Of a stretch of 64,000 nucleotides of DNA, positions 1-35,500 are shown piece after piece. Numbering within the stretch: the first letter of the stretch is position 1; every line of letters begins with the position of its first letter. The stretch spans positions 2,232,001 through 2,296,000 of the forward strand of contig CANXME010002096.1 in NCBI GenBank assembly GCA_948144175.1, written 5' to 3'. The notes beneath the pieces were generated by a model. It was not told the DNA's origin, ran no database searches, and worked only from the letters and a program-made list of their open reading frames with translations. A program made the translations under genes and the position numbers. This stretch comes from Closterium sp. NIES-65. Lineage: Eukaryota > Streptophyta > Zygnematophyceae > Desmidiales > Closteriaceae.

Positions 1-2397
1 ATCCACGTGGGACGACGCTGCTGGCTGGGTGATCGTAGCCGTTGTTTGCTCGTTGACAGAATCAGGGCTGCTGCGGCTACCGTTGGTACTACCGCTACTG
101 CTGCTGGTGGTCGTAATGCAGTCGTTACTGGTGCCGCTGGTAAGCGAACTGACGTCGTCAGTGCTACGTTTCGTGATTCTAAGCAGCGTAGCTGGCACCC
201 TGAATCGAATCGTGAAATCCATGATGCTAGGCAATGCTCACACCATTAGGTATGCCTTGCGCGGGTAGCAGGACACCAAGCCGCCCGTTACCATCGGCGC
301 CGCATTAGCCAGGCACAAAAAGTCACATTCGGACATACATCAATCCGGAGCGAGTAAGAAATGTGGAAAGGTGCGGTGCTGTTGTGTATAAATAAGGAGC
401 GAATGGTTATGCTACCAAGCAGAGCTAGCAAGAAGCAATGCTCTTCCTATCAATCGTCATTGGGCCGGACATTGAATATCACATTCTGGACAAGCGTCAA
501 GGCGGGTTCACAACGAAACGCGAGAAAAAACAACTTAGTGGTTGTCTACAGAGGAAATGCAGCGACTTGCATTCATGATGCTGCACAGAATCAGGACGCA
601 GGAACCTAAGTGCTCGAATTCCTATGGAGGAAATGTGACATGAAACGACGACTCCAATGTCAAACTGTTGTCCTATGGAGGTTTTGATTAGAGCGGAATG
701 GAGATCTCGATGGAAGGATAGGTTGGCGGGAAAAGGACAATTTTGTCTGCAAGATGGCGGATTTTCAAGGTTGGCTGGATGTTCCTTGAAGATGCCGAGC
801 TGCACGAGAGACGCGTATGGAATTGCGTGAGTCGTGTCTTTGAAGGCGAGAAGGGCAGAGGGGAACCCAGGGGGAGCTGTCAAGTACTTCTTATAGAATT
901 ACTCGTACCGTGGAATAATGTTAACCTCGTCTACATGATACTTCACTTTCTGTGCACTAGATTCTCTGTGTGGATAGAATTGGAAAAGTTCACATTCACT
1001 AGAGCCTCGTTGTAGTAAATCCGATTCGTAGAGAAAAAGCTTGTAGAGGGAACACTGACTTGACTTCAGCAAGGAGCTGTTTGACGTGGCTGCCATGTCA
1101 TTGAGGCCATCATCGTAGTCGGCCGGCGATCTCTTCCCGTCAAGATTCCAGTCAGCGTTCATCCCCCTCGCTTTTTTCGCCACGTGGTACCTGCTGATTT
1201 GCGTGTCAGCAATGACACCAGGTACGTGCCGCGTGACCCAGCTCCCAGCTGGTCGGAGGAGGCGCTTCGCACGAACTCAATATAGCCGTCGATATACAAG
1301 AAAGTAGTTTCTTTCTAAGAACAGAACAACTACCTTCCAGACGAAACACAGAAATTAATCTGTCCTGGATTTTATTGCTTCGTTCACCACCACTTCACAA
1401 TCACGCATTCCTGACCTCCTCTCGCTGCCTCGATTTCTCCCCGCCTCCACCATTTCTTACTGCGCAGCGCTTCAGCCTGCGAGTTACTTCTGCCCGTCAC
1501 GGCAAAGATTATGTTTTCCAGTGAGCCTCTTTAGCCTTCTTGTATACTACAGTAGTGTCTGCTCCCTCTTTCTCCGACGAGTGACGGATGCAATCGGCGT
1601 TTCTCGTCCATAGCTCACTCGTCGAGTAAGCCTCGGACCTGGCACTTTTTTTAGCGCACCGTGTTTTCATCAAGCACCGAAGCTCCGCGCTCCGGTATCC
1701 CGTACTTCCGTGAGATACCGCAAAGTACCTTTTCCGTGGTATTCCGTTGTTCCGTAAGACACTGTAGATTCGTGTATTCGTGTATTCGAGAGTCGTGAAT
1801 ACGTGAATTCGTAACTCACTGAATAGTAAGTCTCCTGACGCAGCCCTGGCTCGTCCGTCCGGTGCGTATCTGCGGGCGACCGCGCTTCTCGCGTCGTCCT
1901 GCCTCGCTGCCTCGCACCCCCTCCTCGCCTTCCGCTCTGGTATCGCCGGCGGCGTTACTATGGTGCCTGCGTGGACAGGTACTAGCGATTTGCGAAGTAG
2001 CTATGGAAATAGTGTGAATCTGAGTCGCCTTAGAGCACATCGCCAGCGTTAGCATCATGGTGCCAGCCTTGAATTTGCGTGGACTGGTACTAGCATAATC
2101 GTTGTTGACGGTCTGGCGATGAGTCCTGCTTCACTCGATTTTGCTGAATCACATCCACAAGTTGCAGGGATTTTTTTAGAATTCTCAAAGAATTCTCAAA
2201 ACATCCCTCCGATGAGTCATGCTTCACTCGATTTGCCTGAATCACATCCACAAGTTTTGATTATTATTCCTATTTGATAGAGCTGCTTGCAGAGCTGCTT
2301 TTAGCAATAGAGAGGTTCTTGTTTTGACGCACTTCAAAACAGCGAAGGAAGCAGAGTCGGCACTGAGATTGCCGACGCATTTCCACGTCCACATCGG
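1..2397. other. Upstream region without a recognised gene
   Basis: No reading frame here resembles a family I know, and the frames longer than 60 codons on either strand are short and of random composition. The first 260 bases are rich in TGCTG/CGTCG words. A TATAAATA word sits at about 388-395, but nothing recognisable follows it. The last 300 bases before 2398 should hold the promoter and 5' UTR of the LCIB-like gene; no convincing TATA box is visible there. A duplicated segment of about 45 bp (2118-2164 and 2211-2256) with an AT-rich palindrome between its copies is listed separately. Confidence 0.5.
2118..2256. repeat. Direct duplication with GAATTC palindrome at the junction
   Basis: The segment beginning GATGAGTC and ending CATCCACAAGTT occurs twice, at about 2118-2164 and 2211-2256, with a few differences. 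Between the copies lies an AT-rich stretch (about 2170-2201) with two TTCTCAAA half-sites around GAATTC cores. This is the first example in the window of a direct repeat joined by a palindrome of the TTTTGAG/CTCAAAA family. Confidence 0.75.
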
Positions 2398-32500: not shown

Positions 32501-35500
32501 CTTGTGCATCTCCCCCAGGATGCAGCTGAGCAGACTCGACTTGCCCGACCCAACGGGCCCACAGATAGCAACTCTCGCTCCCCGACCAATCTGCATGCCA
32601 ATGCCCCGCAGTGTGGGGCGGTGCATGTGCTGCAGGTGCGGAGGCGGCAGGTCCCATGTGAAGGCGCCCCCGTCGACGAAAACTGCGTCCTCTGTGTCTT
32701 CCGGGGAGAGCCATGAGACTGCTGTCACCTCGATCTCCTGCGCTGACTGGTACCTGCCGTGGGGAGAGAAATGGGGGCAGGGATGGGAAGCGGCACGAGG
32801 AAGGGTATGTGGTTGGGGCGGTGCATGTGCTGCAGGTGCGGGGGCGGCAGGTCCCAGGTGAAGGCGCCCCCGTCGACGAAAACAGCGTCCTCTGTGTCGT
32901 CGGGAGAGAGCCATGAGACTGCTGTCACCTCGATCTCCTGCGCTGACTGGTACCTGCCGTGGGGAGAGAAATGGGGGCAGGGATGGGAAGCGGCACGAGG
33001 AAGGGTATGTGGTTGGGGCGGTGCATGTGCTGCAGGTGCGGGGCGGCAGGTCCCAGGTGAAGGCGCCCCCGTCGACGAAAACAGCGTCCTCTGTGTCGTC
33101 GGGAGAGAGCCATGAGACTGCTGTCACCTCGATCTCCTGCGCTGACTGGTACCTGCAAGGACAAGGGCGTCGGTGTGAGGAAGCAGAAAGGGAGGGGGAT
33201 GGGGGTCGGGATGGGGCAGGTGCATGTGCTGCGGGTGCGGAGGGGGGCAGATCTTAGGTGAAGTGAAGGTGCCCCCGTCGACAAAGACAGCGTCCTCTGT
33301 GTCTTTCGGGGAGAGCCATGAGACTGCTGTGACCTCGATCTCCTGCGCTGACTGGTACCTGGATGAATAGGAATGGGAATGGGGAATGGAGAGGGCGATA
33401 TGGAGGGGGAGGGTTCAGGGAGCATGGAGCAAGGAGCAGCCCAGCAGAGGAACAGCCCAGCAGAGGAACAGCCCAGCAGAGGAACAGCCCAGCAGAGGAA
33501 CAGCCCTGCTGAGGAACAGCCCTGCTGAGGAACAGCCCTGCTGAGGAACAGCCCTGCTGAGGAACAGCCCTGCTGAGGAACATTCTGGCAGTCTTCTGGA
33601 GAACAGATGTGTAGCAATGCCACCATTGCGAATACCTGGGGTTCGCAACTGTAAGACAGCTCGCCCCATACCCAGCGAGCAGGAAATTAAGCAGTCTGGA
33701 GGCACAGCCTTACCTGGCGAGGCGGTCAAGAGACACGAGTGCTTGAGAGATGGAGGAGAGAACATCTGGGAACGAGCGGAGGGGCTCCTGTGAGGCAGAG
33801 GGGTGGAAAATAGCGGGGAAAGGAAGGGAGGCAGGAGCACGGACGGGAGTGGGAGGAGATGAGTGTGGGAGCATGAGATGAAGTAGATAGCAGGCAGTGG
33901 AATGGAAGGGAAGGTGGAATACAGGATAAGGTGTGAAAGGGAAGAGCTACGCAGAAAATAAGTGCGAACAGAGAGCAGCGGCAGACAACAGGGACAAAGA
34001 TAGGAACCTAGGCACCCCACTGTCTGACGCTGCTCTCCTAAAGGCCACCTTCCTCATAGAGAGACCTCCCTCCCTCCCCGACATCCAGAGGAGCACGATG
34101 TTGGCCGCCATGAGGTGGTTGCCGCGCGCCAGCCATGCATGCAGGCTGCACTCCCCTAGAGAGAGCCTAGAGCCTACCTGGGTTATGGCATGCTCAGCAA
34201 GGGCGAAATCACATGAGAAAGCATCAGATTCCCACCCACCTGGAGGATCCGGAAGGTGGCGATGGCAGTGAAGATTGAGGCAGCAGAGAGGGGTTCTTCG
34301 AAGGCCACGCACGCAGCGAATGTGGCGGAGGCGACGAGGAGAGGAGACATCCAGAGGAAGACGATGTTGGCCGCCATGAGGTAGTTGTAGCGCGCTAGCC
34401 ATGCCAGGCTGCGCACACCTAGGTCCTAGGGCATAGGGCAGGGCCTACCTAGGCCATGGCACGCTGAGCATGGGCGGAATGACATGAGAGAGCATCCGTA
34501 TCCCACCCACCTGGAGGATCCGGAAGGTGGCAATGGCAGTGAAAATGGAGGCAGCGGAAAGAGGCTCCTCGAAGGCCACGCAGGCAGCGAAGGTGGCGGA
34601 GGCGACGAGGAGAGGCGACATCCAGAGGAAGACGATGTTGGCCGCCATGAGGTAGTTGTAGCGCGCCAGCCATGCCGCCTCCTCCGCCCGATAGTCCTCT
34701 ATCTGCTCCAAGAACCGCCCCTCCCACGCGTGCAGCTTTATCACCTGATGGGGTGGGGGGGAAGGGGGGAGTGGGGGAAGGAGGTGTGGGGGATGAGGTT
34801 GGATAAACGAACCTCAACATTCAGCCATGCCGCCTCCTCCGCCCGATAGTCCTCTATCTGCTCCAGGAACCACCCCTCCCACGCATGCAGGTTTATCAAC
34901 TGCGGGGGGTGGCAGGGCGGAAAGGGGGAGAGGAGTGGGGGAAAGGGGGTGTGGGGGGTGAGGTTCGATAAAGGAACCTCAGCATGCAGGCATGCGACCT
35001 CCTTCGCCCGATAATCCTTTATCTGTTCCAAGAACCGCCCCTCCCACGCGTGCAGCTTTATAACCTGAGAAGGAAGAAGGGGGTGGGAGAGGTGTGTGGA
35101 GGGGAAAGGCGGAGAGATGCATTTTGAGGCGCCTCTTGAGGCGACTTTAGAGGCGCCTCAAGAGAAGATGCAGCTTCCTCAGCCCAGTTTTACCCGCCCT
35201 TCCCACGTGCATGTGTGGGGGGGGTGGGGAGTGAGGAGGGGGAGGTGGGCGACTTCCAACCTGGACGTTTGTCACGAGCAAGATCATGTTCTGCCCCTCC
35301 TATAACCACTCTCTTCGTCCACAATCATCAGCCAACCCCTCTCCTCTCTCTCTCGTCTATCCACTCTCTACCCACTATTTTCCGCACCTGTCGGAGATTC
35401 ATCCTCTGTTGCTTCCCGTGGCTTGCCTTCTCCTTCCCGGACTCACCCTCGCTCCTTCTTCTTCTGAGCTCTGTTCCTGTGATACCTTACCTGCTCTGCC

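Follow-up and report, generated by a model that had tools for sequence, protein, structure and literature searches.

Short palindromes between local duplications in Closterium: a candidate nuclear insertion element consisting of a palindrome only

How does a palindrome of a few tens of bases come to lie repeatedly between two copies of the DNA that surrounds it? The question is raised by a stretch of 64,000 nucleotides from the alga Closterium sp. NIES-65 (contig CANXME010002096.1, positions 2,232,001 to 2,296,000; C1798:2232001-2296000 in the assembly of 874 Mb and 2,400 contigs that was searched), hereafter the window, in which members of a palindrome family with the core CTTTTGAG-N4-CTCAAAAG accompany local duplications. 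The explanation that we favor, with a probability of about 0.6, is that the family represents a nuclear insertion element, dispersed through the genome, which is made up of the palindrome only, has no body, and is captured in staggered breaks. On the best reading of the sites the insert is about 18-36 bp long, was palindromic on entry, duplicated a target of 16 to about 85 bp and decayed later. We infer from the structure of these sites that the family is probably mobile.

Abundance and symmetry of the family

The window contains 35 matches to TTTTGAGNNNNCTCAAAA (TTTTGAG-N4-CTCAAAA) with at most three mismatches, 26 of them with at most two and 12 exact, against an expectation of 2.10 (standard deviation 1.37, largest value 6) from 100 dinucleotide shuffles. 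This bears out an earlier note on the same DNA, which had reported at least twenty sites with shared arms at coordinates that prove correct to within about 2 bp. All 26 matches with at most two mismatches are confined to 2.1-35.2 kb, to the right of which there is a single match, with three mismatches, at 37357. Among the perfect palindromes of the window, 10 of the 16 with arms of at least 7 bp and all 9 with arms of at least 10 bp belong to the family. A scan of the whole assembly, which the earlier note had proposed as a check, returned 30,327 copies of the exact core versus 4 of a reversed pattern that is a palindrome too and has an unchanged composition, and the 28-base form GTGACTTTTGAG-N4-CTCAAAAGTCAC is present in 1,335 copies versus 0 for its control. 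In the contig to which the window belongs, 20 stretches of 10 kb picked blind yielded 17 matches with at most two mismatches, 4 of them exact, distributed over 8 of the stretches. Apart from the window and these blind stretches (L016-L035), the fully inspected sample of 57 sites is motif-selected, loci L001-L015 and L036-L046 having been chosen for carrying the motif; members of arrays were collapsed, under slightly different rules, to 48 sites for the tight duplication tests and to 50 for the tests of arm profile and symmetry.

The shuffles, the palindrome census and the genome-wide count rule out a chance origin of the family, and single-base differences between copies, together with the occurrence of sites on many contigs, led us to reject an assembly artefact. 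A viral or prokaryotic source of the 24-base form GACTTTTGAG-N4-CTCAAAAGTC was likewise rejected, as this form was found 0 times in viral contigs and 0 times in the genome contigs searched. An Rfam search gave no match at the gathering score, a tRNA scan found none, and no peptide form of the palindrome occurs in 123 proteins (3 matches to an open reading frame of the window and the 120 listed of 7,646 copia relatives). We found no description of this palindrome family in the open-licence papers searched, nor did we meet there any nuclear element like it, in agreement with the earlier note.

In the commonest subtype the core extends to about GAGGTGACTTTTGAGTCGACTCAAAAGTCACCTC. The four central bases are self-complementary in 49 of the 57 sites (at most one mismatch and sufficient flank; window and L001-L046), where chance would give 1/16, the center being TCGA in 30 sites, GCGC in 9, ACGT in 5 and AATT in 5, a tally that includes several array members. 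Among the matches listed genome-wide 46 of 50 centers are self-complementary, or 35 of 39 once three arrays are collapsed. The excess of self-complementary centers that had been proposed for testing is thus present, and the center does change from site to site as had been claimed; it is not, as had also been claimed, always palindromic, since only 9 of the window's 12 exact cores have a self-complementary N4 (the exceptions being 5855 with GTGC, 17914 with TTGC and 23470 with TCGT). Beyond the core, the TCGA subtype has the outer arm GAGGTGAC, which is matched at a rate of 83% next to the core but of only 38-50% farther out (48 half-arms), as expected of trimmed ends. Seven of the 27 sites in which neither arm ends in GAC possess at least four further symmetric bases (naive P=1e-11), with outer arms of other sequence such as GGTTGA, GTGTT or CTGC. 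As arms that differ in this way are still symmetric, the symmetry belongs to the element and not to one particular sequence. The ends of the inserts vary from site to site, and palindromes are found nested within each other.

Across 12 window events, mismatches affect 13 of 108 positions in the arms and 35 of 545 positions in the duplicated copies, the divergence of the latter ranging from 0 to 18% between events. The arms are therefore not better preserved than their surroundings and give no sign of a standing function. On this ground we reject the maintenance of symmetry after insertion, and we find no support for the suggestion of the earlier note that a symmetric protein recognizes the sites, insofar as this implies a standing binding site; the best reading is that the sites were palindromic at insertion and then decayed neutrally.

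Flanking duplications and the direction of change

The association with duplications was assessed against control positions at least 150 bp from motif sites and, within the window, limited to 1.5-36 kb. Because the genome is rich in minisatellites, positions whose 18-base core recurs nearby were dropped, which removed 14 of 48 motif sites and 662 control positions. Under this array control, 16 of 34 motif sites have a copy on either side at a distance of no more than 15 bp (the tight test), as against 14 of 2000 controls (0.7%; p=7e-23), and with distances of up to 40 bp (the looser test) the figures are 20 of 34 and 67 of 2000 (3.4%). The alignment of flanks that had been proposed in search of direct repeats hence confirms the enrichment, and the placement between two local copies of variable length is that expected of an insert in a staggered break. 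The simple duplication test gave 32 of 57 sites versus 141 of 1000 controls, and the first, window-only test gave 14 of 24 versus 167 of 1000 at the lowest threshold, its 24 sites having been hand-picked from the 35 matches as likely family members. When the 19 hairpins that a less strict palindrome rule detects in the window were compared, a strong and close two-sided direct repeat accompanied 7 of the 13 that belong to the family and none of the 6 others.

The association thus stands, but the earlier wording that almost every site lies between two copies goes too far: 12 of the 18 site groups of the window show a clear duplication, whereas groups 5814 and 14229 are at minisatellite edges, 35122/35146 has a short duplication at most, and 8596, 17914 and 26179 have none. 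In most of the window's clear events a single palindrome lies between the two copies, and none lies outside them. Examples from the other loci are copies of 60 bp (100% identical) around the 23 bp ACTTTTGAGTCGACTCAAAAGTC in L012, of 23 bp (100%) around 23 bp in L038, of 71 bp (94%) around 23 bp in L041, and of 30 bp (100%) around 21 bp in L032. The duplicated copies measure 16-91 bp with a median of 33 in 35 scored rows, some of which, including the largest, are inflated by arrays. Arrays of identical copy-palindrome units are seen in the window and, among the matches listed, as evenly spaced runs, of which C6 has two and C10 one, with C21 as a further case. It had been held that the repeats are not target-site duplications; this finds no support, as their layout, the palindrome-free relatives of 2 of the 12 window events and the divergence of 0-18% fit target duplications made with a variable stagger. 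The flanking repeats have the appearance of target duplications that differ in length and in age.

For the 12 window events, the flanks and one copy joined without the insert were sought in the window and the loci read, and palindrome-free related copies were recovered for two. At event 21288 a related copy at 22043-22129 (82%) is continuous through the site and lacks the palindrome, and at event 27317 the related exon 27554-27692 aligns through the site without the palindrome or the second copy. Judging from these alignments, the best reading is that at both places the state with the palindrome is the derived one. The inserted units of 27317 place an in-frame stop in the sequence as read, and the exon copy that holds them would accordingly appear to be broken.

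Sites in the window and their setting

The individual sites are collected in Table 1.

Table 1. Sites of the palindrome family in the window, with flanking copies and inserts
Positions	Strand	Duplication	Insert or palindrome	Remarks
2117..2256		47 bp (2117-2163, 2210-2256), target duplication	46-bp hairpin insert, AATT type	outer arms AGGGAT/ATCCCT
4717..4847		55 bp	21-bp insert TTTTGAGTCCATTCAAAAGCA	palindrome continues CTCTGC/GCAGAG
5283..5396		35 bp	44-bp insert	holds two tandem GCGC palindromes
5810..5835			perfect 26-bp AATT palindrome	near 31-bp x 8 array (5870-6116)
5854..5873			second palindrome, center GTGC	between partial copies of the 31-bp unit of array 5870-6116
10165..10312		58 bp (83% identical)	32-bp insert, GCGC type
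10944..11090		51 bp (94%)	45-bp insert	20-bp perfect ACGT palindrome
13580..13759		43 bp (95%)	94-bp stretch	contains decayed GCGC palindrome
14223..14252			perfect 30-bp TCGA palindrome	arms GGTGAC/GTCACC; edge of 23-bp x 15 array (14251-14592)
18254..18340		33 bp (82%)	21-bp decayed palindrome
21284..21436		62/63 bp (92%)	28-bp insert	28-bp perfect TCGA palindrome 21349-21376; related copy without it at 22043-22129
23378..23554		51 bp (98%)	75-bp nested insert	36-bp hairpin 23461-23496
24292..24476		84/82 bp (94%)	19-bp insert	perfect GCGC palindrome 24376-24395
27317..27509		identical 34-bp copies	perfect TCGA palindromes 27351, 27404, 27457	(copy-palindrome)x3-copy; within one of two related exons
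28217..28330		31 bp (97%)	52-bp insert	two palindromes
31595..31608	+		half motif GACTTTTGAGTTGC	at join of 211-bp tandem repeat; recurs from 31806
35122..35163		short similar stretches (AGATGCA)	two decayed GCGC palindromes	one insert

Near-identical minisatellites lie beside palindromes at 14251-14592, 8257-8586 and 5870-6116, and insertions may seed such arrays. The 211-bp tandem repeat at 31400-31922 (2.5 copies, 97%) has the lone half motif GACTTTTGAGTTGC at its join, perhaps the trace of a one-sided insertion. A 40-bp repeat at 22515-22609 (2.4 copies, 100%) carries a different hairpin, TTTTTGAAGTGCCCAAAAA, which is maybe a second, unrelated palindromic filler, and the 107-bp direct repeat at 28889-29163 has a 61-bp spacer with CCTTGAGTCAGC and CTCAAGTCACTC, resembling the arm of the family.

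The genes of the window, namely pieces of an ABCC-type transporter with introns and Ty1/copia frames, point to nuclear DNA. The best protein match of the window is that of the open frame at 39586-41523 (minus strand), which is 100% identical to a protein labelled Closterium sp. NIES-64 and 82% identical, over part of its length, to one of NIES-54. The transporter region (22000-42000, minus strand) displays exon-sized tandem duplications (27554-27692 versus 27213-27350, 84%; 23626-23789 versus 23848-24030, 80%), and a similar one is found at 4612-4729/4853-4970; these may have been duplicated long ago or may serve as alternative exons. The Ty1/copia-type open frames, at 44249-47509 and 59548-63945 (both on the minus strand), contain RVT_2 in both cases and an integrase core in the second, and have very many relatives in several Closterium strains. 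Palindromes with at most two mismatches all fall in 2100-35200 and none in 37400-64000, part of which holds the copia frames. Either genic DNA is the preferred target of insertion, or the DNA with the copia frames is of more recent origin. Elsewhere in the assembly, PF00124 (psbA/psbD-type) has 52 matches on many contigs, including C525, C613, C1961, C2141 and C2210, often in both orientations; these contigs are probably plastid, and perhaps represent several or concatenated plastid contigs. Repeats account for 64.4% of the NIES-64 genome according to a paper on these strains, which also refers to closely related Closterium strains with genomes, some of which mate together (PMC10407611).

Origin of the palindromes and competing explanations

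No longer parent with the same ends was found within a spacing of 35 bp, longer parents of hundreds of bases or more not having been searched for directly. Arms spaced by N5-35 gave 62 matches versus 1,335 with N4 (28-base form), and the spaced-arm places are, among the matches listed, mostly palindromes nested in one another; furthermore, only 11 of 130 half-site rows in the loci read (one row being duplicated) lack a partner arm. On these counts we rejected a parent that shares the ends of the family and has a short body. The sequence GTGACTTTTGAGTCG occurs 3,181 + 3,354 times in the assembly, and as some 7,000 would be expected from trimmed palindromes alone (an estimate from a non-random sample in which 30 of 57 sites are TCGA and 11 of 48 half-arms end in GTGAC), no excess of half-sites is evident. 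The Y1 HUH transposase family PF01797 has 0 matches in the assembly in an exon-by-exon search with the Y1_Tnp family alone, in which 5 of 14 control genomes do match; the presence in the genome of a Y1 transposase of the type linked to repetitive extragenic palindromes (REPs) was consequently rejected.

Miniature inverted-repeat transposable elements (MITEs) are short, dispersed, inverted-repeat elements that have an interior, duplicate a short target of fixed length, and derive from a parent that carries a transposase. The Closterium family is likewise short, dispersed, of inverted-repeat form and flanked by target copies, but these are not of fixed length (16-91 bp; 84/82 bp at 24292-24476). 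Tandem duplications in rice reportedly arise from staggered breaks, as Vaughn and Bennetzen are said to have argued in 2014. Small tandem duplications have been modeled by nearby breaks on opposite strands, fill-in and end joining (Schimmel 2021, PMC8355091); unlike the duplications in that model as it is outlined there, those of Closterium have one palindrome family repeatedly between the copies. The organelle palindromes of Volvox carteri average 50 nt with loops of 3-5 nt and have nuclear copies, for which an inert, organelle-derived nature has been proposed (Smith and Lee 2009, PMC2670323). To the extent of that description they resemble the Closterium family as short, dispersed, hairpin-forming, often inter-nested, non-coding green-algal DNA found in the nucleus, but the latter is mostly free of a spacer, numbers 30,327 exact cores, is accompanied by target duplications, and in place of a 3-5 nt loop shows self-complementary centers of several types in 49 of 57 sites. 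Bacterial REPs and REPINs (20-50 nt, very many copies, some perfectly palindromic) are described as depending on the Y1 HUH transposase TnpA-REP and as having, in most cases, a GTAG directly before them (PMC8266576). They share with the Closterium family the absence of a coding body; unlike them, the family comes from an assembly with no Y1_Tnp match in the exon-by-exon search, and the half-arm of its commonest subtype is GAGGTGAC (48 half-arms) and not a GTAG lead. The LIMP palindromes of Lobosphaera are, like the present family, algal palindromes linked to rearrangements, but in the account given of them they are mitochondrial and number 19 copies, with internally repetitive arms and a conserved 7-nt loop (PMC4524435). 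The family thus works like a staggered-break insert and resembles REPs and organelle palindromes in appearance, yet it lacks the tested features of REPs, MITEs and Volvox palindromes; by analogy, its nearest relatives in kind would be the Volvox organelle palindromes and the bacterial REPs.

A series of steps that would yield such sites can be envisaged. Two offset nicks would open a staggered break, into which the element would be joined, either as a short duplex or as a single strand folded back into a hairpin; fill-in of both single-stranded tails would duplicate the target, and end joining would seal the insert, perhaps via about one base of microhomology. In a hairpin one arm would be copied from the other, allowing new variants of arm and center to stay symmetric, so that one conserved core would come to be shared by several subtypes, each of them symmetric. 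Capture of a self-folded strand is favored because it explains the origin of the symmetric variants. Free pieces might be supplied by excision from chromosomal copies, by RNA, by an organelle or by a helper enzyme. Of the earlier proposal of fold-back synthesis or hairpin joining, the involvement of a hairpin is plausible in view of the 7 of 27 sites whose differing outer arms are still symmetric; the idea that the palindrome marks duplication junctions holds as an association, but marking or causing the duplication is a weaker account than a joint origin of both in one insertion. Microhomology at the trimmed ends, 20 of which have 18 matched bases between them (P=0.002-0.035 depending on the assumed match rate; 7 of 27 end values from copy-palindrome arrays were dropped and 4 kept from outer array joins at L011 2760 and window 27405), is compatible with end joining, though suggestive only.

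Several observations weigh against the capture of a body-less palindrome. Fourteen of the 34 sites have no duplication even under the looser rule, the strictest score is passed by just 8 of 34 sites versus 7 of 2000 controls, and without the array control the tight test is far weaker: with the lowest threshold it is passed by 19 of 48 sites and 61 of 460 controls, and with the highest by 12 of 48 and 52 of 460 (p=0.011). The decay of the palindromes only loosely tracks the age of the duplications in the 12 events; 10 of these have no palindrome-free related copy in the DNA searched, and at event 27317 the alignment of the related exon is good on one side but extends over only a few bases on the other. 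The microhomology sample is small and retains ends from two array rows, and the hairpin-capture step is one that we infer. Finally, the conserved core would more naturally be due to a protein reading the core.

It is because it explains the fixed core that an enzyme reading the dyad is the main rival. A trans-acting recombinase, nuclease or transposase, perhaps dimeric, would read TTTTGAG-N4-CTCAAAA and move the palindrome, which would then be a non-autonomous transposon of ultra-short length; uneven nicking of the second strand would make the duplication variable. This would accord with the retention of a single core while the center and the outer arms vary, with a dyad whose fixed 4-bp spacing resembles a dimer site, and with the very high copy number (30,327). 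It is nevertheless made unlikely, if still worth serious thought, by the failure to find a longer same-ended element within 35 bp, by the scarcity of unpaired half-sites and by the lack of a Y1 HUH transposase match in the assembly; moreover, we know of no transposase class whose target duplications would span 16 to ~85 bp. Capture of plastid or mitochondrial repeats at nuclear breaks, as proposed for Volvox, has its precedent in the nuclear copies of the Volvox carteri organelle palindromes, whose loops of 3-5 nt and average of 50 nt, as given there, differ from the mostly spacer-free palindromes with a core of 18-20 bp seen here (PMC2670323). The probable plastid contigs with psbA/psbD-type matches show that the assembly includes organelle DNA of a kind that could serve as a source. 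As 30,327 copies would demand very frequent capture, we consider an organelle source rather improbable.

The tendency of the earlier note had been to regard the palindromes as pre-existing and as breaking in the form of cruciforms, thereby causing local tandem duplications. The identical copy-palindrome arrays, as at 27317-27509, and the evenly spaced runs do attest local growth, but most clear events have a single palindrome with none outside, two have palindrome-free relatives, and the other hairpins of the window are without duplications (0 of 6), all of which leaves little room for such an origin. Cut-and-paste elements are known to leave palindromic footprints between target copies, and the family could in principle consist of excision footprints of an inverted-repeat transposon that left its terminal bases head to head; target copies of 16 to ~85 bp, the variable center and outer arms, and the absence of an intact element with CTTTTGAG ends within the spans searched make this highly improbable. 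A maintained binding site or functional dyad spread by selection would account for the conserved core, but with arms that decay no slower than the flanking copies it is scarcely credible.

If the palindromes were indeed captured in staggered breaks, it is tempting to propose, though tentatively and at less than even odds, that a body-less, self-templating hairpin with no gene or parent, spreading by such capture, constitutes a new class of nuclear selfish DNA. Such a hairpin would keep only a half-site of 7-8 bp and its own symmetry, would have achieved tens of thousands of insertions, many of them duplicating the target, and would seed minisatellites as well as extra exon and intron sequence. 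If confirmed, the family would be a nuclear mobile element of just 18-36 bp, with 30,327 exact cores, able to shape introns and minisatellites in a relative of land plants. With genomes of closely related strains in existence, the spread of short palindromes in algal genomes would become testable, as would the question of whether break repair alone can sustain selfish DNA.

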